Of a stretch of 62,132 nt of DNA, positions 39,236 through 62,132 are shown in pieces (position 1 is the stretch's first letter; the number at the start of each line of letters is the position of its first letter). This DNA is from Nitrosomonadales bacterium (GTDB lineage: Bacteria > Pseudomonadota > Gammaproteobacteria > Burkholderiales > Gallionellaceae). The translations under genes were made by a program, and so were the position numbers. Where the stretch lies: assembly GCA_016195965.1 (NCBI GenBank), contig JACPYR010000058.1, positions 1-62,132 of the forward strand, given 5' to 3'. A model generated the notes under the pieces. That model had not been told where the DNA came from, ran no database searches, and was given only the letters and a program-made list of their open reading frames with translations.

Positions 39236-39280
39236 GCATACCTAGCATTCATGCGGCTTACAGCGTGATTGACAAAAGCA

Positions 39281-39300: not shown

Positions 39301-39314
39301 TCTGCGACATAGCG

Positions 39315-39347: not shown

Positions 39348-39370
39348 CCCAATGGCAAAACATGTGCGGG

Positions 39371-40091: not shown

Positions 40092-40123
40092 TAAAAACGG
40101 GACAGCCGTTAAGCCATCCCGTT
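40092..40123 (-). terminator. Terminator after the 77-residue gene
   Basis: On the minus strand AACGGGA pairs with TCCCGTT around a loop that itself contains GGCT/AGCC, followed by TTTTA. It lies 22 bases after the stop at 40145. Confidence 0.75.
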
Positions 40124-40144
40124 CAAGTGTACAAATTGAAAATA

Positions 40145-40378
40145 TTATGCTGGCGGCTTATACAGCTCGGTGGCGATATAATCGATTACATCGCCTGCGG
40201 CCTCGCCAATCAATCGCTCCATGTCGATCTGGGCCCGCATCAGGTTTGTTAAATTTCTTTCCATGGCGACCGCGGCTCGGTAGTCCCCATCGGTACTTGC
40301 TATTTCAGCAATGTCAGAATCAGTCAGCTCAAGCAAAATAGTGCCGCCAGGGAATTCGTAAGGCAATTCGTAAATCAT
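40145..40378 (-). CDS. Small acidic hypothetical protein of the element
   Basis: A 77-residue acidic protein: LPYEFPGGTILLELTDSDIA, then GDYRAAVAMERNLTNLMRAQ and DVIDYIATELYKPPA. No domain was recognised. AAAGGA lies seven bases upstream of the ATG at 40378. It follows the 238-residue gene by 38 bp and is the last gene before a terminator. Acidic small proteins in such elements are sometimes phage- or host-interference factors, but nothing specific supports that here. Confidence 0.7.
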   Translation of the reverse strand: MIYELPYEFPGGTILLELTDSDIAEIASTDGDYRAAVAMERNLTNLMRAQIDMERLIGEAAGDVIDYIATELYKPPA

Positions 40379-40416
40379 GATTTGATCCTTTCGTGTAATT
40401 GAATAGAGGTGCGGGG

Positions 40417-41133: not shown

Positions 41134-41144
41134 AATTGAGTCTC

Positions 41145-41237
41145 CTATTTAAGCGGCCAAGTCGGTATGGCTGGCACGGGTTGAGGTTTGGTCGGCTTGA
41201 GCTGGCCTTCGTGGAATTTGCCTTTCGATTTCGTCAT
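41145..41237 (-). CDS. 30-residue peptide of the element
   Basis: A very short frame (MTKSKGKFHEGQLKPTKPQP then VPAIPTWPLK) starting at 41237 with AGGAGACT upstream. The start overlaps the stop of the zinc-ribbon-like gene (ATGA), and its own stop precedes the ribosome site of the 238-residue gene. Good signals on both sides support translation. It is basic and proline-rich; the role is unknown. Confidence 0.55.
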   Translation of the reverse strand: MTKSKGKFHEGQLKPTKPQPVPAIPTWPLK

Positions 41238-41527
41238 AATTGAGTCTCCTTCAAGTTGAGTGCCGCGTTGATACCGCAACGCGGCGAACGGTATTCATTC
41301 CATGCGCGCCAAGGATTGCATCCGGCCCTATACAGACGCGGGGGGTGCGTGTGCTGCATCGGTGCTGGCTTTGCCACAGGTTCGATCAAGTAATACTCGC
41401 CCAAGCCACAATGAGCCTTTCTCGCTTCGTCGTTGCCGACGTCCCGCCTGTGATAATGAAGCGCGCCACAGTGCGGGCACAGCACACTGACCTGTATTTC
41501 GTTCGAACTGATAACCACAGTGTCCAT
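41234..41527 (-). CDS. Zinc-ribbon-like hypothetical protein of the element
   Basis: A 97-residue protein with CPHCGALHYHRRDVG (about 18-32), a CxxC knuckle, then later cysteines (AHCGLGEYY, YRAGCNPWRAW, SPRCGI) that could complete metal binding. GGAGAT lies eight bases before the ATG. It is the first gene after the iteron block and is coupled by ATGA overlap to the 30-residue peptide. It may be a nucleic-acid-binding regulator; this is inference. Confidence 0.7.
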   Translation of the reverse strand: MDTVVISSNEIQVSVLCPHCGALHYHRRDVGNDEARKAHCGLGEYYLIEPVAKPAPMQHTHPPRLYRAGCNPWRAWNEYRSPRCGINAALNLKETQL

Positions 41528-41544
41528 AATTTAATCTCCTATCT

Positions 41545-41767
41545 ATAATTTATAAATTTGCGGCGACCTATCCTCAGCGGTAATTTTGAGGTCGCCGCAA
41601 ATTGCCTATTTATTAAGCAATTTGCGTCGGCTAAAAAAGTGCGGCTGCGGCTACCTTTTCCCTTAAGGAAACTCCTGCGCCGCACCACCCCTTTTGGGGG
41701 GTGTGGCTGCATTGCGGCAGGCTGCGAAATATAGAGGTCGCCGCAGGTCGCCGCAGGTCGCCGCAAA
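41545..41767. other. Iteron-like block, candidate replication origin of the element
   Basis: GGTCGCCGCA occurs in four direct copies (41590-41599, and three in perfect tandem at 41736-41765) and once inverted (41559-41568). The inverted copy and the first direct copy extend to a 14-bp inverted repeat (41555-41568 / 41590-41603). An AT-rich stretch and AATTGC/GCAATT inverted pair lie between (41600-41625). The block directly follows the RepA-like helicase gene and does not encode a plausible protein. Iterons next to a replication helicase are a standard origin layout. Confidence 0.6.
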
Positions 41768-43966: not shown

Positions 43967-43978
43967 ATTGCACCCCCT

Positions 43979-44194
43979 TTAAACTGCGCGGGGCAAAGTG
44001 CGCTCAGCCATACGCTGTAAAATCCACTGGTCTATTTCGCTTTCGACAAAAGCTATGCGGCGACCGAGGCGGCAAGGCTGCGGGAATGCACCGCTCGCAA
44101 TCAGTTCGTATATTCTGGATTTACCAAGGCAGGTACGATCCTGCACGTCTGGTTTGAGGGGGATTAAGCGGACTTGCGTGGCTGGGTTTTGCAT
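43979..44194 (-). CDS. AlpA family regulator/excisionase-like
   Basis: A 71-residue AlpA-type MerR-like winged helix protein: QDRTCLGKSRIYELIASGAF then PQPCRLGRRIAFVESEIDQW and IL. AlpA proteins control integrase expression and excision of cryptic prophages and islands. It is 12 bases upstream of the replication gene, so the two are one unit. GGAGAAG precedes the ATG. Its promoter region has an inverted TGCATATAT/ATATATGCA pair (44190-44235). Confidence 0.85.
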   Translation of the reverse strand: MQNPATQVRLIPLKPDVQDRTCLGKSRIYELIASGAFPQPCRLGRRIAFVESEIDQWILQRMAERTLPRAV

Positions 44195-44235
44195 ATATCT
44201 TCTCCGTGGTGGTTGCGACGGAATGAAATATATGC
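44190..44235 (-). promoter_or_regulatory. Inverted repeat at the alpA start
   Basis: TTGCATATAT (44189-44198) faces ATATATGCA (44226-44234). The left arm covers the start codon of the AlpA-like gene, so protein binding or RNA pairing here could repress its expression. Confidence 0.35.
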
Positions 44236-44255
44236 ACCGTGAATCGGTACCCCGG

Positions 44256-44852
44256 CTATTGAGACAACTTTCTGAGTTTCCCTATTTTGGTTGCGAAAGT
44301 GCTGCGCTGTATCCTAGCCGTTTTCCCATTGGCGCGGGTGTATGTGTACGCTGATTTTCTTGGCTCGCTATTGTTGCGCCGCTCTTTGGGTGTGCAACCC
44401 GCATCGCTCAACTCGCTGAAGAGGTGTGGCCATAAATCTGCCGGACGCTCAAAATCCCCAAGCTCATCTTTGCGCCCCGCTAGACGTCCCATTATGTCGG
44501 CAACGGTTTCGGCGTTTTCAAGTTTCCCCCGAGACTTCTGCGCATGGGCGCTTTGAGTGTCCGAGAACGTGTCAGACAAAGGTGCAGCGGCATCAAGCGC
44601 GGTTTGGATCAGTTCAACTATTCGCTTGTAATCAGCAAACTTTTCGACGGTTAAATCTTGCTCCACCTTACGCAGTGCGCATTCGCCGATCAGTTGCTCC
44701 CGCGATAAGTTCAGCCGGGTAATGATTTCGATTTCAGCCACGACGCGCGCTTGACCGGTTGCAGCGCGTGCAGCACTGCTTGTCAAATAAGCGGCGCGGA
44801 ATTCATCAAGCAGACCTGCAACCACTGCAAGTTTGGACTGATACTCACTCAT
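44256..44852 (-). CDS. Hypothetical protein of the element (198 aa)
   Basis: A 198-residue, largely helical protein. The N-terminal half has helices (LAVVAGLLDEFRAAYLTSSA, QLIGECALRKVEQDLTVEKF); the C-terminal half is Ser/Arg-rich and basic (ADLWPHLFSELSDAGCTPKE ... GKTARIQRSTFATKIGKLRK). This last part looks like a DNA-binding module and recalls DNA-binding proteins encoded next to integrases in islands. No domain was firmly recognised. The start overlaps the integrase stop by four bases (ATGA), so they are co-translated. Confidence 0.75.
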   Translation of the reverse strand: MSEYQSKLAVVAGLLDEFRAAYLTSSAARAATGQARVVAEIEIITRLNLSREQLIGECALRKVEQDLTVEKFADYKRIVELIQTALDAAAPLSDTFSDTQSAHAQKSRGKLENAETVADIMGRLAGRKDELGDFERPADLWPHLFSELSDAGCTPKERRNNSEPRKSAYTYTRANGKTARIQRSTFATKIGKLRKLSQ

Positions 44853-46054
44853 GCCGCCCCCCTGACCAGCGCCACCACGTTGCCCCTGCTGGCGCAATAA
44901 TTACCCCAAGCGGTCATCAGCTCCCTGCGCTTATCGAATAAGTCGCTGCGCTGATATGAAGCCTCTACCTCGTTAGGGTTGGTATGTGCCAGCGCTGCCT
45001 CAAGTATCGCGCTCGGGTAGCTTGTGACCTCCGCACCCCACATTCTGAATGATGACCTGAAACCGTGCGTGGTTACATCGGGCGCGACACTGTGCAAGGT
45101 CTTATTCACAGCTACATCGGACAGCAACCCGCCCCGGTCGCTCATGAAGACGCGCTCAGAGTCGCCCAGTCTCCATTCCTGCATCTTGAGCAATATCTGC
45201 ATGGCTTCATCGCTTAATGGTACTCGCTGCATGTTACCCGCCTTCATGCGGTGCGCCGGGATCGTCCAAGTTTTCGCGTTCAAGTCGATTTCACCCCACA
45301 ATGCGCCGCGCACCTCGCCTGAGCGGGCAGCGGTCAGGATCGTGAACCGCAAGCAATAGGCTGAAACAAAATCCTTCTCGCGCAATGCCGACATGATACG
45401 CGGCACATCTGCATACGGTGCGGCTGCATGGTGTACGCGCTTTGTTACCTTACTTGGCTTCGGTAAAACGTGATCGAGGTTGCCTTTCCACCGTGCCGGG
45501 TTATAGCGACCATGCGCGCCTTCGTGGACAGTGGCAAAATCCAGCACCGCTTCGATACGTTGCCGAAGACGTGAGGCGGTTTCTGTTTTGGTAGTCCATA
45601 TCGGCAGCAGGATAGCCTTCACATCGGCAAGCGTCACATCGGCGGGCAATTTTTTGCCGATGGTAGGTATGGCGTATTGCTGGAGAGTCGCTGCCCATTG
45701 CGCCGTATGCTTGGCGTTGCGCCAGCCGCTGCTTTTGTTCTTGATTACCTCGTCCGCGCAATCTTCAAATTTCATCACTTTGGCGATGCGCCTATTCAGC
45801 AATACCGCCGGATTATCGCCATCCGCTAGGGCAGAACGCATCCTGCCTGCCAATTCTCGCGCCTGGGCTAACGAGCGGTCATCCTTCGAGCCGATACCCA
45901 ACTCGCTGACCGCGCCTGCGACCTTGTACCTGAATACCCAAGACCGCGCCCCGCTATCCTTCACGCGCAGATAGAGGTTGCCCCCGTCACTGTGGAAACC
46001 TGCCGCTAATGTGTCCACCTGCCGCGCTGTCAGTATTGCTATTCTCTTCGCCAT
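44849..46054 (-). CDS. Tyrosine-type integrase (DUF4102/P4-like)
   Basis: A 401-residue tyrosine recombinase that integrates and excises the element at tRNA-Ser. The N-terminal DUF4102 arm-binding domain is present (LTARQVDTLAAGFHSDGGNL then YLRVKDSGARSWVFRYKVAG), then a core-binding SAM-like domain and the catalytic domain with Arg244 (TAARSGEVRG), His330-x-x-Arg333 (THGFRSSFR), His357 and Tyr367 (VEASYQRSDLF). Length is full, so it should be active. It lies 177 bases from the attR core, oriented inward as usual for P4-type islands. Confidence 0.95.
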   Translation of the reverse strand: MAKRIAILTARQVDTLAAGFHSDGGNLYLRVKDSGARSWVFRYKVAGAVSELGIGSKDDRSLAQARELAGRMRSALADGDNPAVLLNRRIAKVMKFEDCADEVIKNKSSGWRNAKHTAQWAATLQQYAIPTIGKKLPADVTLADVKAILLPIWTTKTETASRLRQRIEAVLDFATVHEGAHGRYNPARWKGNLDHVLPKPSKVTKRVHHAAAPYADVPRIMSALREKDFVSAYCLRFTILTAARSGEVRGALWGEIDLNAKTWTIPAHRMKAGNMQRVPLSDEAMQILLKMQEWRLGDSERVFMSDRGGLLSDVAVNKTLHSVAPDVTTHGFRSSFRMWGAEVTSYPSAILEAALAHTNPNEVEASYQRSDLFDKRRELMTAWGNYCASRGNVVALVRGAA

Positions 46055-48322: not shown

Positions 48323-48430
48323 TAAATCGTGCATGATATGATTATATGTTGTAATCGAAATTCAGGAATTAAACGAATCCATCCTGCTTGTTTTATTTTG
48401 TCTCTTTTTATTATCACCCGAAAATATTCT

Positions 48431-50026
48431 GTGTCTACTCCCCGATTTCCCTTAGTCCCATTACTGATTTTGGCAATGTTGTCTGGTTGCGCCGCAGGCC
48501 CCGACTTCAAGCGGCCAGTCGCGCCATCCGCCAGCAGCTATGCGCCGGCGAACAATACAGCAGAACCGACTGCATCCGCACCCGTACCGGTCGGAGAGTC
48601 GCAACGCTTTAACCCGGCAGCGGATATTCCGTATGACTGGTGGACATTATTCCGTTCGCCGCAACTCAATGCCTTGATAGAGCATACGCTCAAAGCCAGT
48701 CCCACCATCGAAGCCGCACAAGCCGCATTGCGTCAGGCACATGAAAACGTCGTCACCCAACAGGGATTTTTTTACCCCACGGTCGGCGTAAGCTATGCTC
48801 CCTCGCGCAACATGTTGGCGGGGAATATGGGGGGAAATTCACCCGGCATACAAGGTAATGGCTCCGCCATCCAGACCTACTCCAATCCCGCCGGTCCCGA
48901 CTATAACGGCCCGGCATACTACAACTGGCACACCGCACAACTTTCGGTCGGCTATGTGCCCGATGTGTTCGGTATCAACCGCCGACTCGCCGAATCGGCA
49001 CTGGCTCAAGAACAGTGGCAACAAATGCAACTGCAAGCCACTTATATCACACTCATTTCAAACGTCATCGCAGCCGCTTTCCAGGAGGCCGGCTTGCGTG
49101 CGCAGATCGCGGCTATCAACAACATCATCTCTATTAACCGCGAAAATCTCGAAATTATGCATCGGCAACTTGAACGAGGTTATCTCGCAGAGATCGATGT
49201 GGCGGCACAGGAGGCGCTGCTGGCTCAATCCGAGCAAGCTTTGCCACCGCTCAACAAGCAACTGGAACAAACACGCGACTTGATCCGAGCCTTGGCAGGA
49301 AATCTGCCGGATCAGGAAGTGCCGGAATTTTTTACATTGGCTGATTTTCATCTGCCCGAGGAGTTGCCGTTGAGCCTGCCTTCCACGCTGGTCGAACAAC
49401 GCCCCGACGTACGTGCCGCCGAAGCGCAGCTGCACAGTGCAAGTGCACAATACGGGGTAACCGTCGCCAACAAAATGCCCCAATTCATGGTAACCGCGAA
49501 TGTGGGGGGCATGGCTTCATCACCTGACTGGATGTTTCGTAGCGGGGGTTCATTTTTTAATCTGACCGGCAATATCTCCCAGATAATTTTTGATGGCGGA
49601 ACATTGCGTGCCAAATCTCGCGCCGCCGAGCAGGCGCTGATCCAGGCCGCGGCTCAGTATCGCGGCACGGTTATCACCGCGTTGCAAAATGTGGCCGACA
49701 CCCTGCATGCCATCCGAACTGATGCAGATGCGCTCAAAGCTGCCGCAAAATCCGAGCGCGCCAGCAAAACCGTCCTGGAATTATCAGGCAAGCAATACCA
49801 GCTGGGTTATATTAGTTACCAGAATCTGTTGGCCGCACAGCAAAGTTACCAGCTTGCTGTTATCGGTCTTGCGCAAGCGCAAAGCAGCAGATTAGGCGAC
49901 ACAGCCGCGCTGTATCAATCCCTGGGAGGCGGCTGGTGGAATCGCCCCGAGATGACAGCCACGCAAGACACCGCATCACCCATCGTTCAACCCCACACCT
50001 TGGCACCAGGAGACTCGGCCAAATGA
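48431..50026 (+). CDS. Efflux RND outer-membrane lipoprotein (NodT/CusC type)
   Basis: A 531-residue TolC-like outer-membrane factor. The N-terminus has a lipobox MLSGCAAGPDF, then the NodT start FKRPVAPSASSYAPANN and DIPYDWWTLFRSPQLNALIE. Two OEP repeats follow (about 80-280 and 300-490), with PADL-like LVEQRPDVRAAEAQLHSASA and FDGGTLRAKSRAAEQALIQ. It forms the outer-membrane channel for the adaptor and pump encoded next. The GTG at 48431 is proposed because it gives a proper signal peptide; ATG 48329 would add 34 odd residues. The stop overlaps the adaptor start (ATGA). Confidence 0.9.
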   Translation: MSTPRFPLVPLLILAMLSGCAAGPDFKRPVAPSASSYAPANNTAEPTASAPVPVGESQRFNPAADIPYDWWTLFRSPQLNALIEHTLKASPTIEAAQAALRQAHENVVTQQGFFYPTVGVSYAPSRNMLAGNMGGNSPGIQGNGSAIQTYSNPAGPDYNGPAYYNWHTAQLSVGYVPDVFGINRRLAESALAQEQWQQMQLQATYITLISNVIAAAFQEAGLRAQIAAINNIISINRENLEIMHRQLERGYLAEIDVAAQEALLAQSEQALPPLNKQLEQTRDLIRALAGNLPDQEVPEFFTLADFHLPEELPLSLPSTLVEQRPDVRAAEAQLHSASAQYGVTVANKMPQFMVTANVGGMASSPDWMFRSGGSFFNLTGNISQIIFDGGTLRAKSRAAEQALIQAAAQYRGTVITALQNVADTLHAIRTDADALKAAAKSERASKTVLELSGKQYQLGYISYQNLLAAQQSYQLAVIGLAQAQSSRLGDTAALYQSLGGGWWNRPEMTATQDTASPIVQPHTLAPGDSAK

Positions 50027-51183
50027 TCAAAAATAAAAAAAATGTTATTTCGCTGCTGATTGCCCTGCCCCTGATGGCTGGCGCAGGCTATTGGATATGG
50101 AACAAATATCATACTGCTGACACATCGGCAAACGCTGCAAAACCCGCCCCGCACACAGCTTCCGACACGTTGCATTTCGATGCCAATGCGCCCCAGTTGA
50201 CGTATTTGCATATCAAAGCCGCCGAGGCTTTTCCCGAGCCGTTACTGGAACCGCTTAATGCGCGCATTACCTACGACGACAACTACACTGCGCGGGTATA
50301 TTCCCCGATTTCCGGACGTGTCACAAAAATCGCCGCCGAAGCCGGCCAGCAAGTCAAGGTCGGAGATGTGCTGCTGCAACTGGATTCCCCCGACTACGCA
50401 CAGGCTTCTTCGGATAGCGCCAAGGCCGAGGCTGATCTGTTGCGCAAGCAGCAGGCATTCGAGCGCGCCAGGCAACTGCTGGAGATACAGGGGATGGCAC
50501 GCAAGGATGTCGAATCTGCCGAAGCCGATTGGCATCAGGCTGAGGCTGAAGCACTGCGCGCCAAAGCGCGCCTGAAAAACCTGGCCAGCCATACCACCAC
50601 CACGGAGGGACAATTCATACTGCGCGCACCCCTGGAAGGCACCATCAGTGAACGTCAAGTCAATGCCGGCAGTGAAGTCAGACCCGATGCAACAAGCCCG
50701 TTGTTCGTCATCACCAACCCGCAGCACCTGTGGGCCATCGTTGACCTGCCGGAGATACAACTGGGGAAAATAAAAATTGGGCAACCTGTGTCCATTGAGG
50801 TTGACGCGTATCCCAATGAAGTATTCCCAGGCAGGATCGCCGTTATTGGCGGAACGCTAGACCCGCTTACGCGCCGTATTCAGATTCGCTGTGAACTGGA
50901 AGATGCCAAGCACAAACTTAAACCGGAGATGTACGCGCGCGTCACTCCGAGCGCCGATAGCAAATCCAATTTGCCACGGATTGCAAATTCCGCGCTATTT
51001 ACCCAGGGCGTATCCAGTTTTATTTTCGTGGAACTCTCCCCCGGCGTGTTGCAGCGCCGCCGGGTCTCGTTAGCCCTGCAGGGTCCCGAGTACAGTTATG
51101 TCAAGGAAGGCCTGCATGCCGGTGAACGTGTCGTGACCAGCGGCGCATTGCTGCTGAATTCTGAACTGTCCGGCGAAAACTAA
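50023..51183 (+). CDS. RND efflux periplasmic adaptor (CusB/CzcB-like)
   Basis: A 386-residue membrane-fusion protein: N-terminal membrane anchor (NVISLLIALPLMAGAGYWIW), barrel-sandwich half TARVYSPISGRVTKIAAEAG with QVKVGDVLLQLDSPDYAQA, an alpha-hairpin (about 130-205), the second lipoyl half FILRAPLEGTISERQVNAGS and a beta-barrel TNPQHLWAIVDLPEIQLGKI. CusB-like metal-binding methionines are not obvious, so the substrate may not be Cu/Ag. It links the outer-membrane channel and the pump and is translationally coupled to the channel gene. Confidence 0.93.
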   Translation: MIKNKKNVISLLIALPLMAGAGYWIWNKYHTADTSANAAKPAPHTASDTLHFDANAPQLTYLHIKAAEAFPEPLLEPLNARITYDDNYTARVYSPISGRVTKIAAEAGQQVKVGDVLLQLDSPDYAQASSDSAKAEADLLRKQQAFERARQLLEIQGMARKDVESAEADWHQAEAEALRAKARLKNLASHTTTTEGQFILRAPLEGTISERQVNAGSEVRPDATSPLFVITNPQHLWAIVDLPEIQLGKIKIGQPVSIEVDAYPNEVFPGRIAVIGGTLDPLTRRIQIRCELEDAKHKLKPEMYARVTPSADSKSNLPRIANSALFTQGVSSFIFVELSPGVLQRRRVSLALQGPEYSYVKEGLHAGERVVTSGALLLNSELSGEN

Positions 51184-51185
51184 GC

Positions 51186-54100
51186 ATGCTCAATTCACTG
51201 ATCACCTTCGCACTGCAACAACGCGTTTTTGTACTGGCAGCCAGCCTGTTGCTGGTCGTTTCCGGATGGTTCGCATGGACCAATTTACCCATTGAAGCTT
51301 TCCCTGATATCCAGGACGTGCAAGTCCAGGTCATCACGCTCGCACCCGGCCTGGCCCCGGAGGAAGTCGAGCGCAGCATCACATTGCCGATCGAACGGGA
51401 AATGAGCGGTGTACCGCGCATGATTCAGTTGCGTTCGGTTTCCATCACCGGCCTGTCCATCGTCACACTGACGTTCTCCGATAGCACCGACGATTATTTT
51501 GCACGCCAGCAAGTGCTGGAAAAGCTGCAGAACGTCACCCTTCCACAGGGCATCCAACCGGGTATTGCGCCACTGACCAATGCGGTTGGCGAAATCTACC
51601 GCTATGTGCTGGACACACCCGCCGACATGTCATTGGGCGAAGTGCGCGCCTTGCAGGACTGGGTGATCCGCCCCGCGTTGCGCAATGTTCCGGGCGTGGC
51701 CGACGTGGTCGGTTTCGGCGGCGTCATCAAGGAATATCAGGTGCGCATCAATCCCTATTTGTTGCGCAAATTCAGTGTCACGATCGACCAGGTCGCACAG
51801 GCCCTGACTAACAACAGCGCCAATAGCGGCGGCGGCATTATGCGACGCGGCGACGAATCGCTGGTGATACGGGGCATCGGCCTGCTGCAGAATCTGAATG
51901 ACATAGGCCGGGTCGCGATCGTCACCCGTAACGGCAAGCCTATCCTGGTCAGCGACGTGGCAGAAGTTGCCATCGGGCCACGCCCGCTCTCCGGTATCGT
52001 CGCTTTTAACGAACGCGATAATATCGTGCAGGGCATTGTGCAAATGACCAAAGGGCAAAACGCTACCAAAGTAGTCGATGCTCTCAAGGAAAAGATTGCC
52101 AAGATTTCCCACAAGCTGCCACCCAACGTTAAATTGGTGCCCTATTACGACCGCACCGACCTGGTCAAACACACGGTGCATACCGTAGTTGAAAATCTGC
52201 TGGTAGGCGCATTTCTGGTAGTCGCTGTGCTGATCATCTTTCTGCGCAACTGGCAGGCAGCGGTCGCCGTCGCGGTGGTCATTCCCCTGTCGCTGCTGTT
52301 TGCTTTTGTGTTGATGGATACGCGCGGCGTGTCTGCCAACCTCATCTCGCTCGGCGGCGTGGACTTTGGCATCATCATCGACAGTGCCGTGGTGCTGGTC
52401 GAGGCCCTGATGGTCAAACTGGCGCTCGCCAACGTCGAACAATTCCCGCAGCACGGCCAATACTCCTGGCGCATCCATACGCTAAAAAATACCGTGCTGG
52501 AACTGGGCCGCCCCATCCTGTTTTCCAAAGCCATCATCATTCTCGCCTTCCTGCCCATCTTCACGTTCCAGCGCGTCGAAGGAAAAATATTTTCGCCGAT
52601 GGCCTTTACCCTGACTTTCGCGCTGCTCGGTGCGATTCTGCTGACGCTGACCCTGGTTCCCGCCTTGATCAGCTATGCGATGAAGAACGGCGACATGGCG
52701 GAAAAGCACAGCGACTGGATGCACGCGTTGCAGGAAAGCTATCGCCGCCTGCTCGACTGGTCAAAATCCCGGCGCAATCCCATCGTCGTCATCTCGGTCC
52801 TGTTGCTTACCATCACGCTGCTGCTCGCGCCGCGCCTGGGCAGCGAGTTCCTGCCCAAACTCGACGAAGGCAATATCTGGCTGACCATCACGCTGCCGCC
52901 ATCGACGGCGCTGGAAAAAACCAAAGAGATCGAGCAGCAGGTACGCGCAATCCTCAAATCGTATCCGGAAGTGCATAACATCACGACACAGGTAGGAAGG
53001 CCCGATGACGGCACCGATCCGAAAGGCGTCAATAATCTGGAAATCATGGCGGACCTGAATCCCAAAGATACCTGGCATTTTGCCGATAAAGACGAATTGA
53101 TTTCCAGCATGGAGCAAAAAATCCATGCGATTCCCGGCGTGCCCACCAATTTTTCGCAAGTGATAGAGGACAATCTGGAAGAAGCACTGTCCGGCGTAAA
53201 AGGTGAAATCGCGGTCAAGGTGTTCGGCCCCGACCTGGAAATTCTCGAGAACAAGAGCGACCAGATCGCAGCGGTGCTGCGCGGAATTCACGGCTCCACC
53301 GATGTGGCGGCCATCAAGATCGGCGGTCAAAGCGAACTGAATATTGTGATGAACCGCGAACAGATGTCGCGCTACGGAATCAATGTGTCCGACGTGAACA
53401 GCACCATACAGACCGCCCTTGCCGGCAGCGGAGTGAATGTGTTTTTTGAAGGGGATAAACGCTTCGACATCACGTTGCGCCTGGATTTGCAGTACCGCGA
53501 TGCGGTGGATGATGTCGCCAATTTGCCCATCAACTTGCCGGGCGGCAACGGTACTATCCCGCTGGGAGAAATTGCCAAAGTCGAAATCAAGCAGGGTGCC
53601 GGACGCATAGGCCGCGAAAATGGTGAGCGCATGGTTGCGGTAAAGGCAAATCTGCTCGGTCGTGACCAAGGCAGTTTTGTTGCCGAGGCGATGGAAAAAG
53701 TCGCAGATCAAGTCGTCCTGCCACCCGGCTACAACATCACCTGGGGTGGCCAATTTGAAAACCAGAAACGCGCACTGGCGCGCCTGAAAATCATCGTGCC
53801 GCTCTCGGTGTTGATGATTTTTGTGCTGCTGTTCTGGGTGTTCCGCTCGATGATGAAAGCCCTGCTGGTGATATTGATGGTGCCTTTCACGATCATCGGC
53901 GGCATGGCCGGACTGGGGCTGGCCGGCTTGCATCTGTCCGTTTCTGCGGCAGTCGGCTTCATTGCGGTTGCCGGGATCTCGGTGCAGAACGGCGTGATCA
54001 TGGTCGAACAATTCATGGAGATCATGCTCAATGGCAAGAGTCTGAAAGAAGCAGTGATAGAAGGCGCCGTCCTGCGCTTGCGCCCTATCATGATGACCGC

Positions 54101-54272
54101 CTTGATGGCCGGGTTGGGCCTGCTTCCCGCAGCGCTTTCGCATGGCATAGGCTCGGAAACCCAGCGCCCGTTTGCAGTGGTAATCGTTGGCGGCATCGTG
54201 ACCGGAACTTTGTTCACCTTGCTGTTGCTGCCGTTGTTGTTCCCCTATTTCCACGAGGAAAGCTCCACCTGA
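51186..54272 (+). CDS. Heavy-metal-efflux RND pump (CusA/CzcA family)
   Basis: A 1028-residue RND transporter with two halves of six transmembrane helices and two large periplasmic loops. N-terminal FVLAASLLLVVSGWFAWTNL and PIEAFPDIQDVQVQVITLAP (HME signature start) are clear. The proton-relay motif in TM4 is DFGIIIDSAVVLVEALMVKL, where most CzcA/CusA proteins have DGAVVMVEN; here Gly is Ser and Asn is Ala. Later segments RLKIIVPLSVLMIFVLLFWV and RLRPIMMTALMAGLGLLPAA are typical. It begins two bases after the adaptor stop. The metal is not certain; the altered TM4 motif suggests a divergent subgroup. Confidence 0.93.
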   Translation: MLNSLITFALQQRVFVLAASLLLVVSGWFAWTNLPIEAFPDIQDVQVQVITLAPGLAPEEVERSITLPIEREMSGVPRMIQLRSVSITGLSIVTLTFSDSTDDYFARQQVLEKLQNVTLPQGIQPGIAPLTNAVGEIYRYVLDTPADMSLGEVRALQDWVIRPALRNVPGVADVVGFGGVIKEYQVRINPYLLRKFSVTIDQVAQALTNNSANSGGGIMRRGDESLVIRGIGLLQNLNDIGRVAIVTRNGKPILVSDVAEVAIGPRPLSGIVAFNERDNIVQGIVQMTKGQNATKVVDALKEKIAKISHKLPPNVKLVPYYDRTDLVKHTVHTVVENLLVGAFLVVAVLIIFLRNWQAAVAVAVVIPLSLLFAFVLMDTRGVSANLISLGGVDFGIIIDSAVVLVEALMVKLALANVEQFPQHGQYSWRIHTLKNTVLELGRPILFSKAIIILAFLPIFTFQRVEGKIFSPMAFTLTFALLGAILLTLTLVPALISYAMKNGDMAEKHSDWMHALQESYRRLLDWSKSRRNPIVVISVLLLTITLLLAPRLGSEFLPKLDEGNIWLTITLPPSTALEKTKEIEQQVRAILKSYPEVHNITTQVGRPDDGTDPKGVNNLEIMADLNPKDTWHFADKDELISSMEQKIHAIPGVPTNFSQVIEDNLEEALSGVKGEIAVKVFGPDLEILENKSDQIAAVLRGIHGSTDVAAIKIGGQSELNIVMNREQMSRYGINVSDVNSTIQTALAGSGVNVFFEGDKRFDITLRLDLQYRDAVDDVANLPINLPGGNGTIPLGEIAKVEIKQGAGRIGRENGERMVAVKANLLGRDQGSFVAEAMEKVADQVVLPPGYNITWGGQFENQKRALARLKIIVPLSVLMIFVLLFWVFRSMMKALLVILMVPFTIIGGMAGLGLAGLHLSVSAAVGFIAVAGISVQNGVIMVEQFMEIMLNGKSLKEAVIEGAVLRLRPIMMTALMAGLGLLPAALSHGIGSETQRPFAVVIVGGIVTGTLFTLLLLPLLFPYFHEESST

Positions 54273-54434
54273 TTGCGGTTTGTTGCGCAGATTCCGCGTT
54301 AATCCGGAATCGCCAGGCCTCATCCCGACTCGCCATTTCACTGCCACTATCCGTAACTCGTATAAGCACAAGGGGAACAGCACACAAACTGCCGAGCTTT
54401 TTAATGTATGATATTTCCCTCGGGCTGCTGCAGA

Positions 54435-55253
54435 ATGCTGGAGCGCGCGAATAAAAAAATAATCGGGCAATTCGGGGGAGAGAACAATATTTATAGATTC
54501 AGATCGGGTTTATTAGCACTGGCCATGGTTGCCGGCATGTTTGCAAGTACAGAAGTCATGGCCGCGTCTGCCGATGAAATTCAAGTCTATGATGAAGCCA
54601 TCAACAAGGAAGGTGAGCTTAATGTTGATATTCACATGAACTATGTTCCTTCCGGCCCCCAGGCACCTGCCTACGACGGAGAAATCCCGTCATACCATAA
54701 TTTCAGAATGACGCCGGAATTTGCCTACGGGCTCAGCAACAATCTGGAAGCGGGACTATATGTGCCCTTCATTCGCGATGCCGATGGCCTTTGGTATTCC
54801 GAACTGGCTAAAGTACGCCTGAAGTATATCGGCGACAACCGTGAGCTGGGATTTTATTGGGGCATGAATGTCGAGCTTGGCGCGAGCACGATACGGACTG
54901 CAGAACAACGCTGGAATCTGGAATTGCGCCCCATTCTTGGATACAAGACTGCCGACTGGAATCTCACCGCCAATCCGATTTCAGGCTTCGCCTTATCTGG
55001 CAACTCCCATATCCCTGGCTTTTCCCCATCGGTCAAAATCAGCCGCAAGGCAACTGAAAAAACCTGGTTCAGCTTCGAACACTATGCGGATTTTGGAAAC
55101 ATGAACCACATGCTCAGCCTGAGCCAGGAAACTTATCTGACCACCGATACCGAAATTTTCGGGCATGATTTGCATTTCGGTGCAGGTCACGACTGGATGG
55201 GAGAATCCGGGAACTGGATAATCAAATCAATTTTCAACATCCCTTTAAACTGA
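54435..55253 (+). CDS. Outer-membrane beta-barrel protein
   Basis: A protein of about 250-272 residues with a signal segment (FRSGLLALAMVAGMFASTEV then MAASA) and alternating amphipathic strands (ELGFYWGMNVELGASTI, WNLELRPILGYKTADWNLTA), ending LHFGAGHDWMGESGNWIIKS and FNIPLN, an outer-membrane barrel pattern. It was not assigned to a named family. The start is uncertain: ATG 54435 has no ribosome site, while GGGGGAG at 54475-54481 points to an in-frame ATT at 54489 that would give an ideal signal peptide. It follows the efflux operon by 160 bp. Confidence 0.75.
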   Translation: MLERANKKIIGQFGGENNIYRFRSGLLALAMVAGMFASTEVMAASADEIQVYDEAINKEGELNVDIHMNYVPSGPQAPAYDGEIPSYHNFRMTPEFAYGLSNNLEAGLYVPFIRDADGLWYSELAKVRLKYIGDNRELGFYWGMNVELGASTIRTAEQRWNLELRPILGYKTADWNLTANPISGFALSGNSHIPGFSPSVKISRKATEKTWFSFEHYADFGNMNHMLSLSQETYLTTDTEIFGHDLHFGAGHDWMGESGNWIIKSIFNIPLN

Positions 55254-55390
55254 TCCGGCGGCCTTGTTCGGGCACAACTGCTGCCCGAACGCATCCATGC
55301 CGTATACAGCCTGAGCATCAATGAATATAATAATAACTATCGCCTTGTAACTCATCCTCCGGCACAGGCAACCAACTACCGAGCAAAGCC

Positions 55391-56731
55391 ATGAAAAATT
55401 CTCCAGCCCATATAAAATCCACAAACCAAACAATAATCAGGAAAATGATTCACCGCCTGAACATCGGCGCGCTGATCGGGCTGATTTGCTTTGTGCTGTT
55501 TCCCCACAGCGCCTCGGCCATCCCGGCGTTCGCAAGGCAATACGGCATCAGCTGCTCTACCTGCCATGCAGCCTTCCCGTGACTGAACAGTTTCGGTCGC
55601 AATTTTGTCGAGAATAATTATCGCTTGGAAAACTGGAAAGAAAACGCGCTGCAAACCGGCGACGACATGCTGGCTTTGCCCAAGGTCGTGCCGCTCGCAT
55701 TGCGCATGCAGGCCTATGTGCAATCGCACCAGGCCAACACCCTGGATCCGGCCACCGGCGCAGTAAGCAACGAAACGAACGGAGATTTCCAGTCGCCTTA
55801 CATGCTCAAGCTGCTGTCCTCCGCCCCGCTGTCCGATCACATCTCCTATTACTTCGCGTCTATCGTATCGGAGCTGGGGAACAATGGAACCCTGTTTCTC
55901 GATGACGCGTGGATCAGCCACGATGATATTTTCGGCAGCGGAGTCGGTATGCTGTTGGGTCACTTTCAAATCAGCGATCTGATGTTTCCGCGCGAGACAC
56001 GCATGACCACGCAGGATTTCATGGTCTACCGTATGGCCGGGATAACCTATGAACGCGGAGCGAGCTTCAACCGCGACATCGGGCTGGCAAACGTGGCACT
56101 GGGTCTGGCAAACGGCAACGGCATAGACACCAGCTACTCCGCCAACAGCGCGGGCTTTAACCGCCCTGAGATGCTGTTCGACAACAATAAATCCAAATCG
56201 GTATTTGGCCGCATCGGCACGAGAACCGGCCCGATCAGGGCAGGTTTGTTCGGGCTGGTCGGCAAGCAACCCAGCGGAGGTGCAGCAGCGCTTTACCCCA
56301 CGACGCAAAAGGGGACGCGCGAGACAGACAAGCATGTGCTGGGTCTGGACTTTTCCGCAGATAACGGCCAACTGTACTGGTTCGGCCAACTGCTGTGGAA
56401 CCGCTGGAGTAACTTTCTGGACGACAGTCCGACCACAGACCGCAACTGGAACGGCGGCTTTGTAGGCATGGATTATGTCTACAACGAACGCTGGGCGTAT
56501 TCGCTGCTGTTCAACCGCGCCAGCGCAAACGAATTTCGCGGCACGAATACCGTCTACGAAGGCATTGAGATCAATACCCTCACCGCAACCAGCAGCTATT
56601 ATTTTATGCGTAATGCAAAAGGCATCATCGAGGTCAACCTAGATATGCAACCTATCACCAGCAATGCCAACTTTGTCGGCCATAAAACCAAAGAAGGCTA
56701 TCTGCTGGTAGGCCTGGATGTGGCTTTCTAA
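55391..56731 (+). pseudogene. Cyc2-like monoheme porin-cytochrome, interrupted by TGA
   Basis: One continuous frame of 446 codons is broken only by TGA at 55580-55582 (codon 64). The first part holds a signal peptide (GLICFVLFPHSASA) and IPAFARQYGISCSTCHAAFP with one heme site CSTCH (55-59). After the TGA the expected sequence continues (LNSFGRNFVENNYRLENWKE), then an outer-membrane barrel (about 90-446) ending LLVGLDVAF. N-terminal heme plus barrel is the design of Cyc2-type porin-cytochromes that take electrons from outside the cell (Fe(II) in Gallionellaceae). The family usually has Arg or Lys at this position, so CGA-to-TGA is a simple explanation. A start inside the second part (55625) would make a barrel without heme or signal peptide. 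Confidence 0.8.
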
Positions 56732-56801
56732 AAGGGTATTGAAAGCGCCACCGTATTGGGAACAGTGCCCACACTGATCCCAGTCAAATTTATCTCACCC
56801 G

Positions 56802-56837
56802 GACTGCTGACGACCGGATTTTCGGTCGTCAGCAGTC
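56802..56837. terminator. Long hairpin after the porin-cytochrome gene
   Basis: GACTGCTGACGACCG and its exact reverse complement form a 15-bp stem with a six-base loop GATTTT. It lies 70 bases after the stop at 56731. No T-run follows, so it may be a terminator of unusual type or an RNA-stabilising structure. Confidence 0.5.
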
Positions 56838-56883
56838 ATCCCCTCACCCAGCGGACACGACAACATATTTCATACAAATGCTA

Positions 56884-57000
56884 ATGCAAAAACTTGCCCT
56901 TGTTCTGCTTGCTTTGCTAACGAACCCCGCGCAAGCAGAAGAAGCAACCAAAAAAAATAAATCAGGAAAACTGGAATGCAAAATTCCAGAGTATCCATAG
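56884..57000 (+). pseudogene. Decayed 5' copy of the OprB-like porin gene
   Basis: A 38-codon frame encodes a signal peptide (MQKLALVLLALLTNPAQA) closely like that of the porin at 60185 (MQKIFILVLLALLPHLAQA). The segment 56966-56990 is identical over 25 bases to 60257-60281 in the intact gene, but here it is read in another frame and the frame stops at 57000. It is the truncated, frameshifted start of a duplicate. The mgtA gene lies between the two copies. Confidence 0.7.
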
Positions 57001-57039
57001 CCATCTGGCAATAATATAAATCCAAGCCATAAAATTACT

Positions 57040-57073: not shown

Positions 57074-57341
57074 CGTTTCGTTCTGCGGGAGCTCCGTTAT
57101 GGATACTTGTTCAAGTAATAGTAGTCGCTACACCTCATTGGTTGGCATACTCTTAGCCAGATAATTCGCAGCAGCTTCCCCTGCCGCCTATCTCGCTGAG
57201 AATGAGATAGCGGATTCAACCCAGAGCATTTGTTCTCACCGCAATAATTCTCTTAAGCTTTGATGAGAAGCACTGTTTGCTGTCATCGCTGCTTTTATGT
57301 CCGCCTCTTCTGTTTATTTGTTTCAAGCAAGAGGAAAAGTC
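57074..57341 (+). promoter_or_regulatory. Long 5' leader of mgtA with a hairpin
   Basis: The leader between the promoter and the ATG at 57342 contains a 21-codon ORF (57099-57164) and a hairpin CTATCTC-N9-GAGATAG (57188-57210). No known Mg2+ riboswitch consensus was recognised by eye. Enterobacterial mgtA also has a leader of about 260 bases with a short ORF, so attenuation by Mg2+ or translation is plausible. Confidence 0.45.
57099..57164 (+). CDS. Leader peptide upstream of mgtA
   Basis: A 21-codon ORF (MDTCSSNSSRYTSLVGILLA then R) with GGGAG seven bases before the ATG. Its position in the mgtA leader recalls mgtL. It lacks the proline codons of the enterobacterial peptide, but is rich in serine near the start. 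It may couple leader translation to folding of the downstream hairpin. Confidence 0.45.
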   Translation: MDTCSSNSSRYTSLVGILLAR

Positions 57342-60107
57342 ATGAACCAATCATTCTTTAAAGAATTCTTCGCCGGGTTTATTCGCACCCGCGCCATCAG
57401 TCGGCATTTTCGGCGTCTTGCCATACTCGATGCCATCCAAGGCACAACCGTAATCCGCGATATTCCATCCGCGCTCAGCCATACCCTTCAAAGTGCATCA
57501 CATAGTGAAGTTGATCAACTTCTTGTCAATCTTGATAGCCATCTAGACGGATTGAGTGAAACACAGGCCGAACTTATCCGTGCGCGCGTCGGCACGAACG
57601 AAGTCGAGCATGAGAAGCCGCTCCCAGCATGGCTGCATCTGTGGTATTGCTACAAAAATCCATTCAACCTTTTGTTGACCGTACTGGCAACTATTTCTTA
57701 CTTCACCGAAGATATCAAGGCGGCCATTGTGATTTCGGCCATGGTGGTGCTTGCGACGTTCATCCGGTTTATTCAGGAAACGCGCTCAAACAATGTGGCG
57801 GACAAACTAAAGGAGATGGTAAGCAATACGGCCACTGTGCTGCGCCGTGACCCTGCTCAAGATGCCGCTGAGGAGGCACGCCGATACTTTAATGTAGTGC
57901 TCCATCCCAAAGGGCCGCGCAAAGCAGAGGTAGCCATCAAACTTTTGGTTCCCGGTGATCTGGTGCTGCTTTCGGCTGGCGATATGATCCCTGCCGATCT
58001 CAGAATCCTGTCCGCCAAAGATTTGTTTGTCAGCCAGGCGGCCATGACGGGTGAATCCATGCCGGTAGAAAAATTTGCCCTTCAGCGTGTTGCCGATGTC
58101 ACCAATTCCATCGAGCTCGACAACATTCTGTTCATGGGCACCAACGTGGTCAGCGGCTCCGCTACGGCGGTGGTGGTCGCTACTGGCAACAACACTTATT
58201 TTGGCGCATTGGCGCAACGCGTGACCGCGACGACACGCACCCTTACTGCCTTCCAGGCCGGCATCAACAAAGTAAGCTGGTTGCTCATTCGCTTCATGCT
58301 GGTAATGACGCCCATCGTACTGCTGATCAACGGCTTCACCAAAGGCGATTGGCTGGAAGCTTCATTGTTTGCATTGTCAGTTGCGGTCGGTTTAACGCCA
58401 GAAATGCTGCCGATGATTGTCACCACGACCCTCGCCAAGGGTGCAGTACTGCTGTCGCGAAAAAAAGTAATTGTGAAACGTCTGGATGCTATTCAGAACT
58501 TCGGGGCGATGGATGTGCTGTGTACCGATAAAACCGGCACATTAACTCAGGACAAGATTTTTCTGGAACGTCACACCGATGTGTTCGGGCAAGAATCCGA
58601 AGCGGTACTGAATTACGCTTTTCTCAACAGCTACTACCAGACAGGACTGAAAAATCTTCTTGATGTTGCTGTGCTGGAACATGTGGAAGTTCAACAAGAA
58701 CTGGCGATTAACGCGACGTTTCACAAGGTAGATGAAATTCCATTCGACTTCGTGCGTCGCCGTATGTCCGTGGTTGTTGCCGAACAGGATGGGCAACATC
58801 TACTGATTTGCAAGGGCGCGGTAGAAGAAGTCCTTGCTGTATGCAGCCAAGTTCAGCATGGCGACCATGTCGATCCAATGCTGCCAGAAATGCTGGCAAA
58901 AATTCGTTCCATTACCGCAGAGTTAAATGAAGAAGGCTTGCGCGTCGTCGCGGTAGCTGCCAAAGACATTCCATCGACTAATAATTCATACAGCGTTGCC
59001 GATGAACAGGCACTGACGCTGATTGGCTATATCGCCTTCCTTGATCCACCCAAGGAATCGACAGAACCTGCCCTCAAGGCACTCAAAGAACATGGCGTAA
59101 CAGTCAAAGTGCTGACTGGTGACAATGAATTGGTTACTGTCAAAATTTGCCGTGAAGTAGGGCTGCCAATAGAAGGCATACTACTGGGCGCTGATGTCGA
59201 GGCCATGTCGGAGAAAGAGTTGGCAGAAAAGGTTGAGCATTGCAACATTTTTGCCAAACTAACTCCCTCTCACAAAGAACGCATTGTTCAAGCGCTACGT
59301 CGCAATGGGCACGTAGTAGGATTTATGGGGGATGGCATCAACGATGCGCCTGCATTACGTGCTGCTGACATCGGCATTTCAGTCGATACAGCAGTAGATA
59401 TTGCCAAAGAAGCGGCGGATATTATTCTGCTCGAACGCAGCCTGATGGTACTGGAAGAAGGTGTCATTGAAGGGCGCAAGACCTTTGCCAACATGTTGAA
59501 GTACATCAAGATGACCGCCAGCTCCAACTTCGGCAACGTGTTCTCAGTGCTGGTGGCAAGCGCATTCTTACCATTTTTGCCGATGCTGCCGCTGCATTTG
59601 CTGGTACAGAATCTGCTGTATGACTTTTCTCAGACAGCTATCCCGTTTGATAGCGTGGATGAAGAACAAGTTAAGTTTCCACAAAGTTGGAAGCCGGATG
59701 ACATCGGTCGCTTCATGATATTTTTTGGCCCGATCAGTTCCGTCTTCGACATCGCCACTTATTGTTTAATGTGGTTCGTGTTCTCCGCGAACACGGCGGA
59801 TCAACAGACCCTGTTCCAGTCCGGATGGTTTGTTGAGGGGCTGATGTCGCAGACACTCATCGTGCATATGATACGAACACAAAAAATACCGTTCATTCAG
59901 AGCAAGCCAAGCTGGCAGTTGATGAGTGCAACCATACTCATCGTTTCTGCCGGAATTTTCCTGGTGATGGGGCCGTTTGCACATTACTTCAAACTGCAAG
60001 CTTTGCCGCTGATTTACTTTGTGTACCTGTCCATCATCTTGCTTGGCTATATGGTGCTGACTCAAGCCATGAAAGGTATCTACACCCGCAAATACGGCTG
60101 GCAGTAG
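57342..60107 (+). CDS. mgtA: Magnesium-importing P-type ATPase
   Basis: A 921-residue P3B-type ATPase that imports Mg2+ across the inner membrane. Features: MTGESMPVEKFA (actuator TGES), DKTGTLTQDKIFLERHTDVF with phosphorylated Asp396, GDGINDAPALRAADIGISVD (hinge), and MgtA-type SVAVGLTPEMLPMIVTTTLA in TM4. C-terminal helices end LGYMVLTQAMKGIYTRKYGW. The ATG at 57342 has GAGGAAAA upstream; an in-frame ATG at 57297 has no such site. A long leader and small ORF precede it. It lies between an intact and a decayed porin copy. Confidence 0.96.
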   Translation: MNQSFFKEFFAGFIRTRAISRHFRRLAILDAIQGTTVIRDIPSALSHTLQSASHSEVDQLLVNLDSHLDGLSETQAELIRARVGTNEVEHEKPLPAWLHLWYCYKNPFNLLLTVLATISYFTEDIKAAIVISAMVVLATFIRFIQETRSNNVADKLKEMVSNTATVLRRDPAQDAAEEARRYFNVVLHPKGPRKAEVAIKLLVPGDLVLLSAGDMIPADLRILSAKDLFVSQAAMTGESMPVEKFALQRVADVTNSIELDNILFMGTNVVSGSATAVVVATGNNTYFGALAQRVTATTRTLTAFQAGINKVSWLLIRFMLVMTPIVLLINGFTKGDWLEASLFALSVAVGLTPEMLPMIVTTTLAKGAVLLSRKKVIVKRLDAIQNFGAMDVLCTDKTGTLTQDKIFLERHTDVFGQESEAVLNYAFLNSYYQTGLKNLLDVAVLEHVEVQQELAINATFHKVDEIPFDFVRRRMSVVVAEQDGQHLLICKGAVEEVLAVCSQVQHGDHVDPMLPEMLAKIRSITAELNEEGLRVVAVAAKDIPSTNNSYSVADEQALTLIGYIAFLDPPKESTEPALKALKEHGVTVKVLTGDNELVTVKICREVGLPIEGILLGADVEAMSEKELAEKVEHCNIFAKLTPSHKERIVQALRRNGHVVGFMGDGINDAPALRAADIGISVDTAVDIAKEAADIILLERSLMVLEEGVIEGRKTFANMLKYIKMTASSNFGNVFSVLVASAFLPFLPMLPLHLLVQNLLYDFSQTAIPFDSVDEEQVKFPQSWKPDDIGRFMIFFGPISSVFDIATYCLMWFVFSANTADQQTLFQSGWFVEGLMSQTLIVHMIRTQKIPFIQSKPSWQLMSATILIVSAGIFLVMGPFAHYFKLQALPLIYFVYLSIILLGYMVLTQAMKGIYTRKYGWQ

Positions 60108-60184: not shown

Positions 60185-61495
60185 ATGCAAAAAATATTTA
60201 TCCTTGTTCTGCTCGCTTTGCTGCCACATCTAGCTCAAGCACGGGTTACCTCTGAAGAAAACTGGAATGCAAAATTCCAGACCACCTATATCTGGCAACA
60301 CAAACCCGGCTTCAGCTCGGCTTATTCGGGCGCGAACAGCCTGTCACCCGATGCGGAAAACAGCTATACGTTCACTACCGACGCCTTCCTCGGCGTGCGC
60401 ATTGCGCCCGGCAGTGAGCTTTATCTGGTTCCGGAAGTCACCCAGGGCGTGGCCCTCTCCAACCTGAGCGGTTTGGGCGGTTTCACCAACGGCGAAATAA
60501 CGCGCGCATCCGGCACCGATCCGGTCGTCTATCGCCAGCAGTTGTTCCTGCGCCAAACCTGGGGACTGGGCGGTGTTCGCCTGAACAACGAATCCGCCAT
60601 GAATCAATTGGCGGGGGCTATGGACAGCAATCGCTTCGTGTTGACGCTGGGCAATTTTTCAACGCTGAACATTTTCGATAACAACGCCTACGCGCACGAT
60701 CCGCGCACGCAGTTCATGAACTGGTCCAACATGACCCATGCCTCCTACGACTACGCCGCCGATGCTCGCGGCTTCGGCTGGGGCATCGCCGGGGAATGGT
60801 ATCGGGATGAATGGGTGCTCCGCTTCGCCAGGATGACCGGCCCCAGAGACCCCAACATGCTGCAACTGGACTACCAGTTCTTCCAGCATTATGGCGACCA
60901 ACTGGAGATCGAACATAGTCACGAGCTGGCCGGGCAACCTGGCAAGGTGCGCCTGCTGGCCTGGCGCAACCGCGCGATCCTGGCGAATTACCGCGATGCG
61001 ATCAACTACGGCCTCGCCTCCGCGACAGCGCCGGACATCTTCAAGGTGCGTTATCGCGAGCAGATCAAATATGGCTTGGGCATCGACATCGAGCAGGCTA
61101 TCAACGACAATCTGGGTGCTTTTCTGCGCGCGATGCAGTCCGACGGTCACACCGAGACGCTGGCCTTTACCGAGGTGGACAGCTCGATCGCCGCAGGCCT
61201 CTCGCTCAAGGGGACAGGCTGGGGTCGCACACAGGACACCGTGGGGTTGAGCCTGATCGGCAATGGCCTGTCTCAGGACAGGCGCGACTACCTGCAGGCG
61301 GGGGGTATTTCATTCTTCATCGGTGACGGCAAATTAAGCTATCGCCCGGAAACGATTATTGAGAGCTACTACAGCTGGAGCATGACCAAGCATGCCTGGC
61401 TGACCGCAGACTATCAGCATATCGCCAACCCGGCCTACAACGCCGACCGGGGACCAGTGGAGATTTTCGGCATGCGGCTGCATTTCGAATATTGA
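60185..61495 (+). CDS. OprB-like carbohydrate-selective porin
   Basis: A 436-residue outer-membrane porin with signal peptide MQKIFILVLLALLPHLAQA. It matches the OprB/carbohydrate-selective porin pattern: NWNAKFQTTYIWQHKPGFSS, LFLRQTWGLGG, RFVLTLGNFSTLNIFDNNAY, DPRTQFMNWSNMTHASYDYA and a terminal aromatic (MRLHFEY). The solute is unknown; the family takes up sugars or other small molecules. A truncated relic of a copy lies at 56884-57000. Confidence 0.88.
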   Translation: MQKIFILVLLALLPHLAQARVTSEENWNAKFQTTYIWQHKPGFSSAYSGANSLSPDAENSYTFTTDAFLGVRIAPGSELYLVPEVTQGVALSNLSGLGGFTNGEITRASGTDPVVYRQQLFLRQTWGLGGVRLNNESAMNQLAGAMDSNRFVLTLGNFSTLNIFDNNAYAHDPRTQFMNWSNMTHASYDYAADARGFGWGIAGEWYRDEWVLRFARMTGPRDPNMLQLDYQFFQHYGDQLEIEHSHELAGQPGKVRLLAWRNRAILANYRDAINYGLASATAPDIFKVRYREQIKYGLGIDIEQAINDNLGAFLRAMQSDGHTETLAFTEVDSSIAAGLSLKGTGWGRTQDTVGLSLIGNGLSQDRRDYLQAGGISFFIGDGKLSYRPETIIESYYSWSMTKHAWLTADYQHIANPAYNADRGPVEIFGMRLHFEY

Positions 61496-61571: not shown

Positions 61572-61699
61572 CCAAGGATAATAAAATGTCACGGTTTGAC
61601 CATAGTTATGGTTTAAGAGCATAAGCAGAACCGGCACCAACAAGGAAAGTTTTTTAGAACAACACTGATTTTTTAATTTCGGACCAAGGTATGCTGAAA

Positions 61700-61993
61700 A
61701 TGATCAAAAAACTTTTGCCGAATAGTATTTTCTGGTTAACGATGACAGCTAGTATCGCCTGCGCTGCGGAACGCCACGTAGTTAAAAAGCATATCGACCA
61801 GCCACGGCTACCGGAAAACATGGTTCTGATCCCGGCAGGTGAGTTCACCATGGGCAGCGACAAGGAAGACGACGATTCCAAGTGGCGCGGAGCCAATGCG
61901 CTTAATCCATACGGTTTCAACGACAAGCTCTACATAGACGAACATCCGGCACACAAAGTCACGCTGCCCGCTTTTCTGATCGATAAATATGAA
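61700..61993 (+). pseudogene. Formylglycine-generating-enzyme-like (SUMF1) gene truncated by an IS
   Basis: The frame encodes a signal peptide (SIFWLTMTASIACA) and the start of a FGE-sulfatase/SUMF1 domain: ENMVLIPAGEFTMGSDKEDD and DEHPAHKVTLPAFLIDKYE. In intact members this continues as VTNAQY and about 200 more residues. Here it meets the left end of an IS30-type element at about 61994 and runs into a stop at 62021-62023. Start at 61700 or 61691. The catalytic part is missing in this copy up to the window edge. Confidence 0.75.
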
Positions 61994-62132
61994 GGCGGAT
62001 TCAAGGATGAAGTGCAATTTTGAGTAATGCCGGTTGGGTGGGCGGGATGCGGTAGCATCCATGCCTTTTTGACCGGCCAGTCGAAATTGCAGAAATGAAC
62101 TACACACATCTCACCCGAGAAGAACGATACCA
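61994..62132 (+). mobile_element. IS30-family insertion sequence, left end (partial)
   Basis: The sequence changes abruptly after the GAA codon of the interrupted gene. The segment runs through a non-coding left end and into a transposase start at 62095. The rest of the element is outside the window, so its other end and target duplication cannot be seen. Confidence 0.7.
62095..62132 (+). CDS. IS30-family transposase (5' partial)
   Basis: The first 12 codons read MNYTHLTREERY, the characteristic start of IS30-family transposases (MNYxHLTxxERYxI). Only this start is within the window. Confidence 0.8.
   Translation, partial: MNYTHLTREERY

Follow-up and report, generated by a model that had tools for sequence, protein, structure and literature searches.

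A Cyc2-like cytochrome-porin gene interrupted by a single in-frame TGA in a Nitrosomonadales draft genome

Introduction

Cyc2 is a fused monoheme cytochrome-porin. In excerpts from PMC8406198, Cluster 1 of the family includes sequences from Zetaproteobacteria, Gallionellaceae, and Chlorobium, with Clusters 2 and 3 also recognized; the signature is given there as AXPXFAR[QK][TY], CXXCH, and PXL four residues downstream, followed by a fused 16-stranded barrel like those of OprP and OprO. Excerpts from PMC10734462 report cyc2 in 83% of iron-oxidizing Gallionellaceae genomes, with several copies in some. A search of the open-licence literature found no paper on a Cyc2 pseudogene with a stop codon in iron oxidation.

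The stretch of DNA considered here (“the window”) is an entire contig (C86) of 62,132 bases, from a draft assembly (2.73 Mb, 95 contigs, 82.9% completeness). It includes a broken gene which resembles Cyc2 in its AXPXFAR[QK][TY] motif, single CXXCH, the P and L of PXL, and a leader peptide, and perhaps in having 16 long strands, as seen in a model of an intact relative rather than of the window protein. It differs in being interrupted by a stop codon at the X of PXL, and its barrel is far from that of the genome's own uninterrupted Cyc2, as judged via the nearest relative (L038). Closer to it, at 44–59% identity and similar length, are uncharacterized Cyc2-like proteins from Thiohalobacter, Thiogranum, Microbulbifer, Chromatiales MAGs, and one Thiobacillus, mostly labelled Gammaproteobacteria; unlike the window gene, the 38 of these used for the tree described below have no internal stop. 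From ordinary nonsense pseudogenes of horizontally acquired genes no difference was seen: these too have one stop, an open remainder, another like gene in the genome, and damaged neighbors. The reading preferred here, with a probability of roughly 0.7, is that the gene is a dispensable second Cyc2-like copy which was acquired and has recently been hit by a nonsense mutation, with an intact Cyc2 encoded elsewhere in the genome.

The interrupted reading frame

An earlier note on this DNA described a 446-codon frame split by a single in-frame TGA, and translation bears this out: the region 55391-56731 on the forward strand reads as 63 codons, the TGA, and 382 codons (63 + 1 + 382) before a TAA at 56729-56731 (Table 1). 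By eye, 55391 and 55445 are equally plausible start positions. The 63-residue 5′ piece consists of a hydrophobic leader followed by AIPAFARQYGISCSTCHAAFP. The 382-residue piece is 44–59% identical to proteins of other genomes, most of the alignments running end to end, and the 63-residue piece can be aligned with the N-termini of 17 of these same proteins. Since both pieces align with proteins of other genomes, the 446-codon frame is not a chance one, and the family sequence does run straight on past the TGA, as the note had said. Within its own genome, the only match to the barrel piece is itself (E up to 10).

Table 1. Coordinates of features at and around the interrupted gene.
Feature	Coordinates	Strand	Basis
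Outer-membrane factor, adaptor, and CusA/CzcA-type RND pump (TIGR00914)	48329..54272	+	Family match, alignment
Stretch of 2,783 bases with no equivalent in congener G019; includes both the 281-aa gene and the broken gene	54245..57027		Alignment to G019
281-aa protein, judged by eye to be of the outer membrane; no match to curated families above cut-off	54408..55253	+	Family scan, by eye
5′ piece: leader peptide and heme-binding region AIPAFARQY-GIS-CSTCH-AAF-P	55391..55579	+	Translation, alignment, Cyc2 motif (excerpts from PMC8406198)
In-frame TGA at X of PXL; the 44 readable relatives have Arg or Lys	55580..55582	+	Translation, alignment
3′ piece: 382 codons, predicted outer-membrane beta-barrel, open to TAA	55583..56731	+	Alignments; 16 long strands in model of an intact relative
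Relic, 5′ end of OprB-type gene; two short matches to 60202-60281	56898..56990	+	Sequence match
MgtA-type P-type ATPase (TIGR01524)	57297..60107	+	Family match, alignment

Judged from its sequence, the broken gene is a Cyc2-like fused monoheme cytochrome-porin in plan and signature; the label “porin-cytochrome” given earlier was correct, and Cyc2-like is the sharper name. The motif AIPAFARQY lies three residues ahead of the single CXXCH (CSTCH), with equal spacing in the genome's uninterrupted Cyc2; excerpts from PMC8406198 put this spacing at 5 residues, which may reflect a different way of counting. Set against the signature in those excerpts, the N-terminal piece ends in P, stop, L, with the P and L in the right places, so the TGA is the X of PXL. 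Cyc2 is a single polypeptide, fused porin included, with a length of 365 residues or more, whereas the translation table 11 product here stops at 63 residues, making this a broken member of the family at most.

A Pfam and NCBIfam scan of both pieces and of five intact relatives brought no family above its cut-off. A structure model was made of the intact relative L006, from an alignment of 27 relatives plus the window barrel. The model has 16 long strands (our own count of DSSP elements) and a mean pLDDT of 75.5, with values below 50 in two short loops and in the heme region (residues 27-36 and 40-51). Its matches in the PDB are porins, led by the general porins OmpU and OmpC; OprP (2o4v) comes 16th (E 1.6e-11) and OprO (4rjw) 40th (E 3.5e-10).

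The two pieces could conceivably now be separate genes, one for a short heme peptide and one for a porin, and an open frame for the second does exist, from TTG at 55625 to 56731. Past the TGA and up to 55900, however, eight start codons are in frame, none of them associated by eye with a leader or a clear ribosome-binding site, and a split version is absent among the relatives read; such an arrangement is highly improbable. The longest frame past the stop encodes a 368-residue porin without the heme motif, so the number of cyc2 genes counted in a genome is sensitive to one base, a caution for marker-gene surveys.

Relatives and the residue at the stop site

A total of 49 related loci was assembled: 36 from a genome_contigs scan, most of them labelled Gammaproteobacteria and including several Microbulbifer and one Thiobacillus, and 13 from 369 genomes of the class, with the gene's own genome excluded. 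The stop site could be read in 44 of these (40 in a first pass, with 34 Arg and 6 Lys, plus four opposite-strand loci, with 3 Arg and 1 Lys); L027, L029, L037, L048, and L050 were left out as incomplete or without the motif in the scan. The residue aligned with the TGA is Arg in 37 cases and Lys in seven, and in none is it a stop. The matched part of the barrel is free of stops in all 13 of the other class genomes with the gene, as are all 38 relatives in the tree. Most of the relatives are one residue short at the C-terminus in the alignments and tree, which does not affect the stop site.

Complete relatives are 425–463 residues long, and the best identity over the barrel is 59%, to L038. In the tree (39 rows) the window sequence adjoins L038, though support is weak (91/40), and its end branch measures 0.75. 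Plasmid sequences gave no match and IMG/VR none that was confirmed. In the neighboring stretches examined, no 281-aa protein like that of the window was found beside the relatives' genes; some have weakly similar neighbors of common kinds (two-component genes, P-type ATPases, pieces of RND systems), and the neighborhood of one relative, L115, has no evident electron-transfer partner.

Among the three explanations offered in the earlier note, a recent nonsense mutation (CGA to TGA) is the best fit, with Arg or Lys in the relatives read and the rest of the frame open, and to that extent the interpretation in the note is partly supported. A single substitution can suffice to turn an Arg codon into TGA.

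The main rival is that the TGA is absent from the cells, or present in some of them only, the gene being whole and the stop a consensus error or minority strain variant. Because one draft genome alone shows the stop, an error or strain mixture could explain it: the assembly is incomplete, a single base decides the matter while the rest of the frame is open, and the stop is repeated in no other genome searched. On the other hand, UbiB, the M18 aminopeptidase, NAPRTase, HtrA, the RND pump, and MgtA are all uninterrupted in the window, with near full-length family matches, so its consensus is not generally poor; substitution errors are rare in assembled consensus sequences. We consider this explanation unlikely, if still deserving of some weight, and infer that the stop is fixed in the cells.

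Possible decoding of the UGA codon

The genome includes a tRNA-Sec(UCA) (69.3 bits, cut-off 47) and SelB (483.2 bits, cut-off 242.25), at loci L130 and L123 (G000:C81), and probably makes selenoproteins. With this machinery present, it is fair to ask whether the TGA is a selenocysteine codon. The loop of a SECIS element lies 14–37 bases past the codon; within these limits, the best hairpin has a predicted energy of -2.6 kcal/mol, vs. -12.6 for E. coli fdhF handled alike, and no SECIS-like hairpin was found just downstream of the TGA. None of the 44 readable relatives has Cys, Sec, or TGA at the aligned site, which belongs to a heme motif and is not a redox cysteine. On the weak hairpin and the Arg/Lys column, selenocysteine was rejected, its probability being close to nil.

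Low-level read-through by near-cognate tRNA-Trp would give some full-length protein beside the short heme peptide. The stop is preceded by a Pro codon and followed by C, a slow and leaky context in E. coli, and the barrel frame is open, as expected of a gene still used in this way. The Pro and Leu flanking the stop are conserved in the family, however, so that this context need not have been selected. No UGA suppressor was found: there is no UCA anticodon among 29 tRNA matches (ARAGORN) in this incomplete genome, the sole UCA found being that of tRNA-Sec. The tRNA-Trp(CCA) looks ordinary, and with its 5-bp anticodon stem, A9, and G24 (our own numbering) lacks the features tied to UGA read-through in excerpts from PMC13092985. 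TGA also terminates 16 of the 27 window genes checked, and folding around the stop is like that of shuffled sequences (z = +1.55, -0.53, and -0.12). Taken with the 44 relatives readable at the site, none of which has the stop, these results leave the read-through control suggested earlier unsupported, with no positive evidence for regulation; uncontrolled read-through is itself improbable. A terminator-like stem at 55579-55600 was considered as a hairpin signal at the stop and rejected, three such stems being found against a mean of 3.5 in shuffles.

A stop that is real and has been kept might mean that the main product of the gene is a heme peptide of ~20 residues after export (IPAFARQYGISCSTCHAAFP, with cleavage judged by eye), accompanied by a little full-length Cyc2-like protein through leaky termination at Pro-UGA-C. 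This seems very doubtful; if true, it would represent a second route of electron uptake, kept low beside the main Cyc2.

Genomic setting

The gene was found in its own genome only, whether among 61 genomes (E up to 1e-10), 76 of the genus (E up to 1e-5), or 399 of the order (E up to 1e-10), three sets that overlap. Transfer of a Cyc2-like gene into this lineage is the simplest reading. At locus L065 of the congener G019, genes for an outer-membrane factor, adaptor, and RND pump are followed by an MgtA-type ATPase leader and gene and an OprB-type porin (85, 90, and 41% identity to the window for RND, MgtA-type ATPase, and porin, respectively), and the aligned blocks flanking the stretch without counterpart are only 154 bases apart. 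The left limit of this stretch is approximate, as the alignment stops 28 bases short of the end of the RND gene. The 2.8 kb seem to have been gained here rather than lost in G019, the evidence for insertion being this one congener, which alone cannot separate gain from loss, and the lack of the gene in all 75 remaining genus genomes.

There is damage nearby, in the form of the OprB relic and a cut gene at the contig end. The intact OprB-type gene of the window is at 60185-61495; in two other congeners, an OprB-type gene is found downstream of RND by ~0.35 kb (L066) and 1.3 kb (L069). The cut gene, of FGE-sulfatase type (61691-62132), has 110 codons, covers profile positions 3-43 of 255, and ends shortly past IDKYE. 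In one frame the final bases of the contig read MNYTHLTREERY, which we take to resemble the beginning of IS30-type transposases. The FGE-type gene was probably interrupted by an insertion element that also brought the contig to its end. In two congeners, an RND pump gene has a single in-frame TAG (G033 C62:10661-13744 and G031 C93:3506-5350).

Elsewhere in the window are a tRNA-Ser(GGA) (39145-39235) and genes for a primase/helicase-like protein (41768-43966) and a tyrosine integrase (44849-46054); the region 39145-46054 is probably an integrated element or phage satellite, and relatives of the integrase occur in two of 75 congeners (E up to 1e-60). Arrival of the broken gene with this element is not claimed. 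G+C content is 0.50–0.57 beyond 40 kb, yet it is 0.48–0.51 at 30–34 kb as well, so there is no clean drop; congeners have their own versions of the two-component genes (75–77% in G005) and efflux genes; and the tRNA end was not found a second time before the contig end.

A second Cyc2, and the age of the stop

With the cytochrome domain of L038 as query (E up to 0.001), Cyc2-type domains were found in 65 of 76 genus genomes, including this one. Its second such place, on contig C46, is an uninterrupted 491-codon Cyc2 gene with AIPAFARQTGMACSACHQQHFPALNSFGRAF, which fits the signature in the PMC8406198 excerpts. In a BLASTP comparison to L038, this protein has one real segment, 122 columns at the N-terminus with 32% identity. 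Given this Cyc2 and the distribution described in excerpts from PMC10734462, the organism is likely to have an iron-oxidizing life style and its genus to be like those of the Gallionellaceae.

A possible history can be proposed. When whole, the accessory Cyc2-like gene, with signal peptide, one c-type heme domain, and 16-stranded barrel, would have encoded a protein passing electrons across the outer membrane, and we infer that it once worked in electron transfer. It probably arrived jointly with the gene for the 281-aa protein, at a site flanked by mgtA and the metal-efflux pump gene. Its heme domain would then have acquired a single nonsense substitution, leaving a product of 63 residues, perhaps ~20 after export, with a CSTCH site and no barrel; with an uninterrupted Cyc2 still present on a different contig, the loss may have been tolerated. 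This one example suggests that Cyc2-like genes of other lineages can enter Cyc2-bearing genomes and then be lost again.

If the gene is now unconstrained, the stop should not be old, since the barrel frame is still free of any further stop: for a neutral frame of this kind, counting substitutions only, this becomes unlikely (P < 0.05) beyond ~0.10 changes per site. Among 109 columns that 97% or more of the relatives conserve, the barrel departs at 9, the second-highest count in the 39 rows. Scaled to end-branch length, which was entered for 11 of these rows, this comes to 12.0 departures per unit, compared to 7.5, 5.5, 3.4, and 1.7 for four other long-branch rows, but below the short-branch L038 (16.7) and L040 (12.9). 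At a 90% threshold, the window has 14 departures in 142 columns, or 18.7 per unit branch, against 11.2–19.9 for the four long-branch rows. In a smaller set (17 relatives), at the strict threshold, it was highest (8/95 columns, followed by L032 with 8/103), but once the set was enlarged to 38 relatives and branch lengths were taken into account it did not clearly stand out, and relaxed constraint on the barrel is not established. The further-stop estimate and the column departures are both compatible with a recent stop, and neither is proof of one. Two or three Cyc2-type domains are present in several congeners (G444 C113, G437 C26, G006 C68, and G428 C42), some of them neighbors ~1.6 kb apart.
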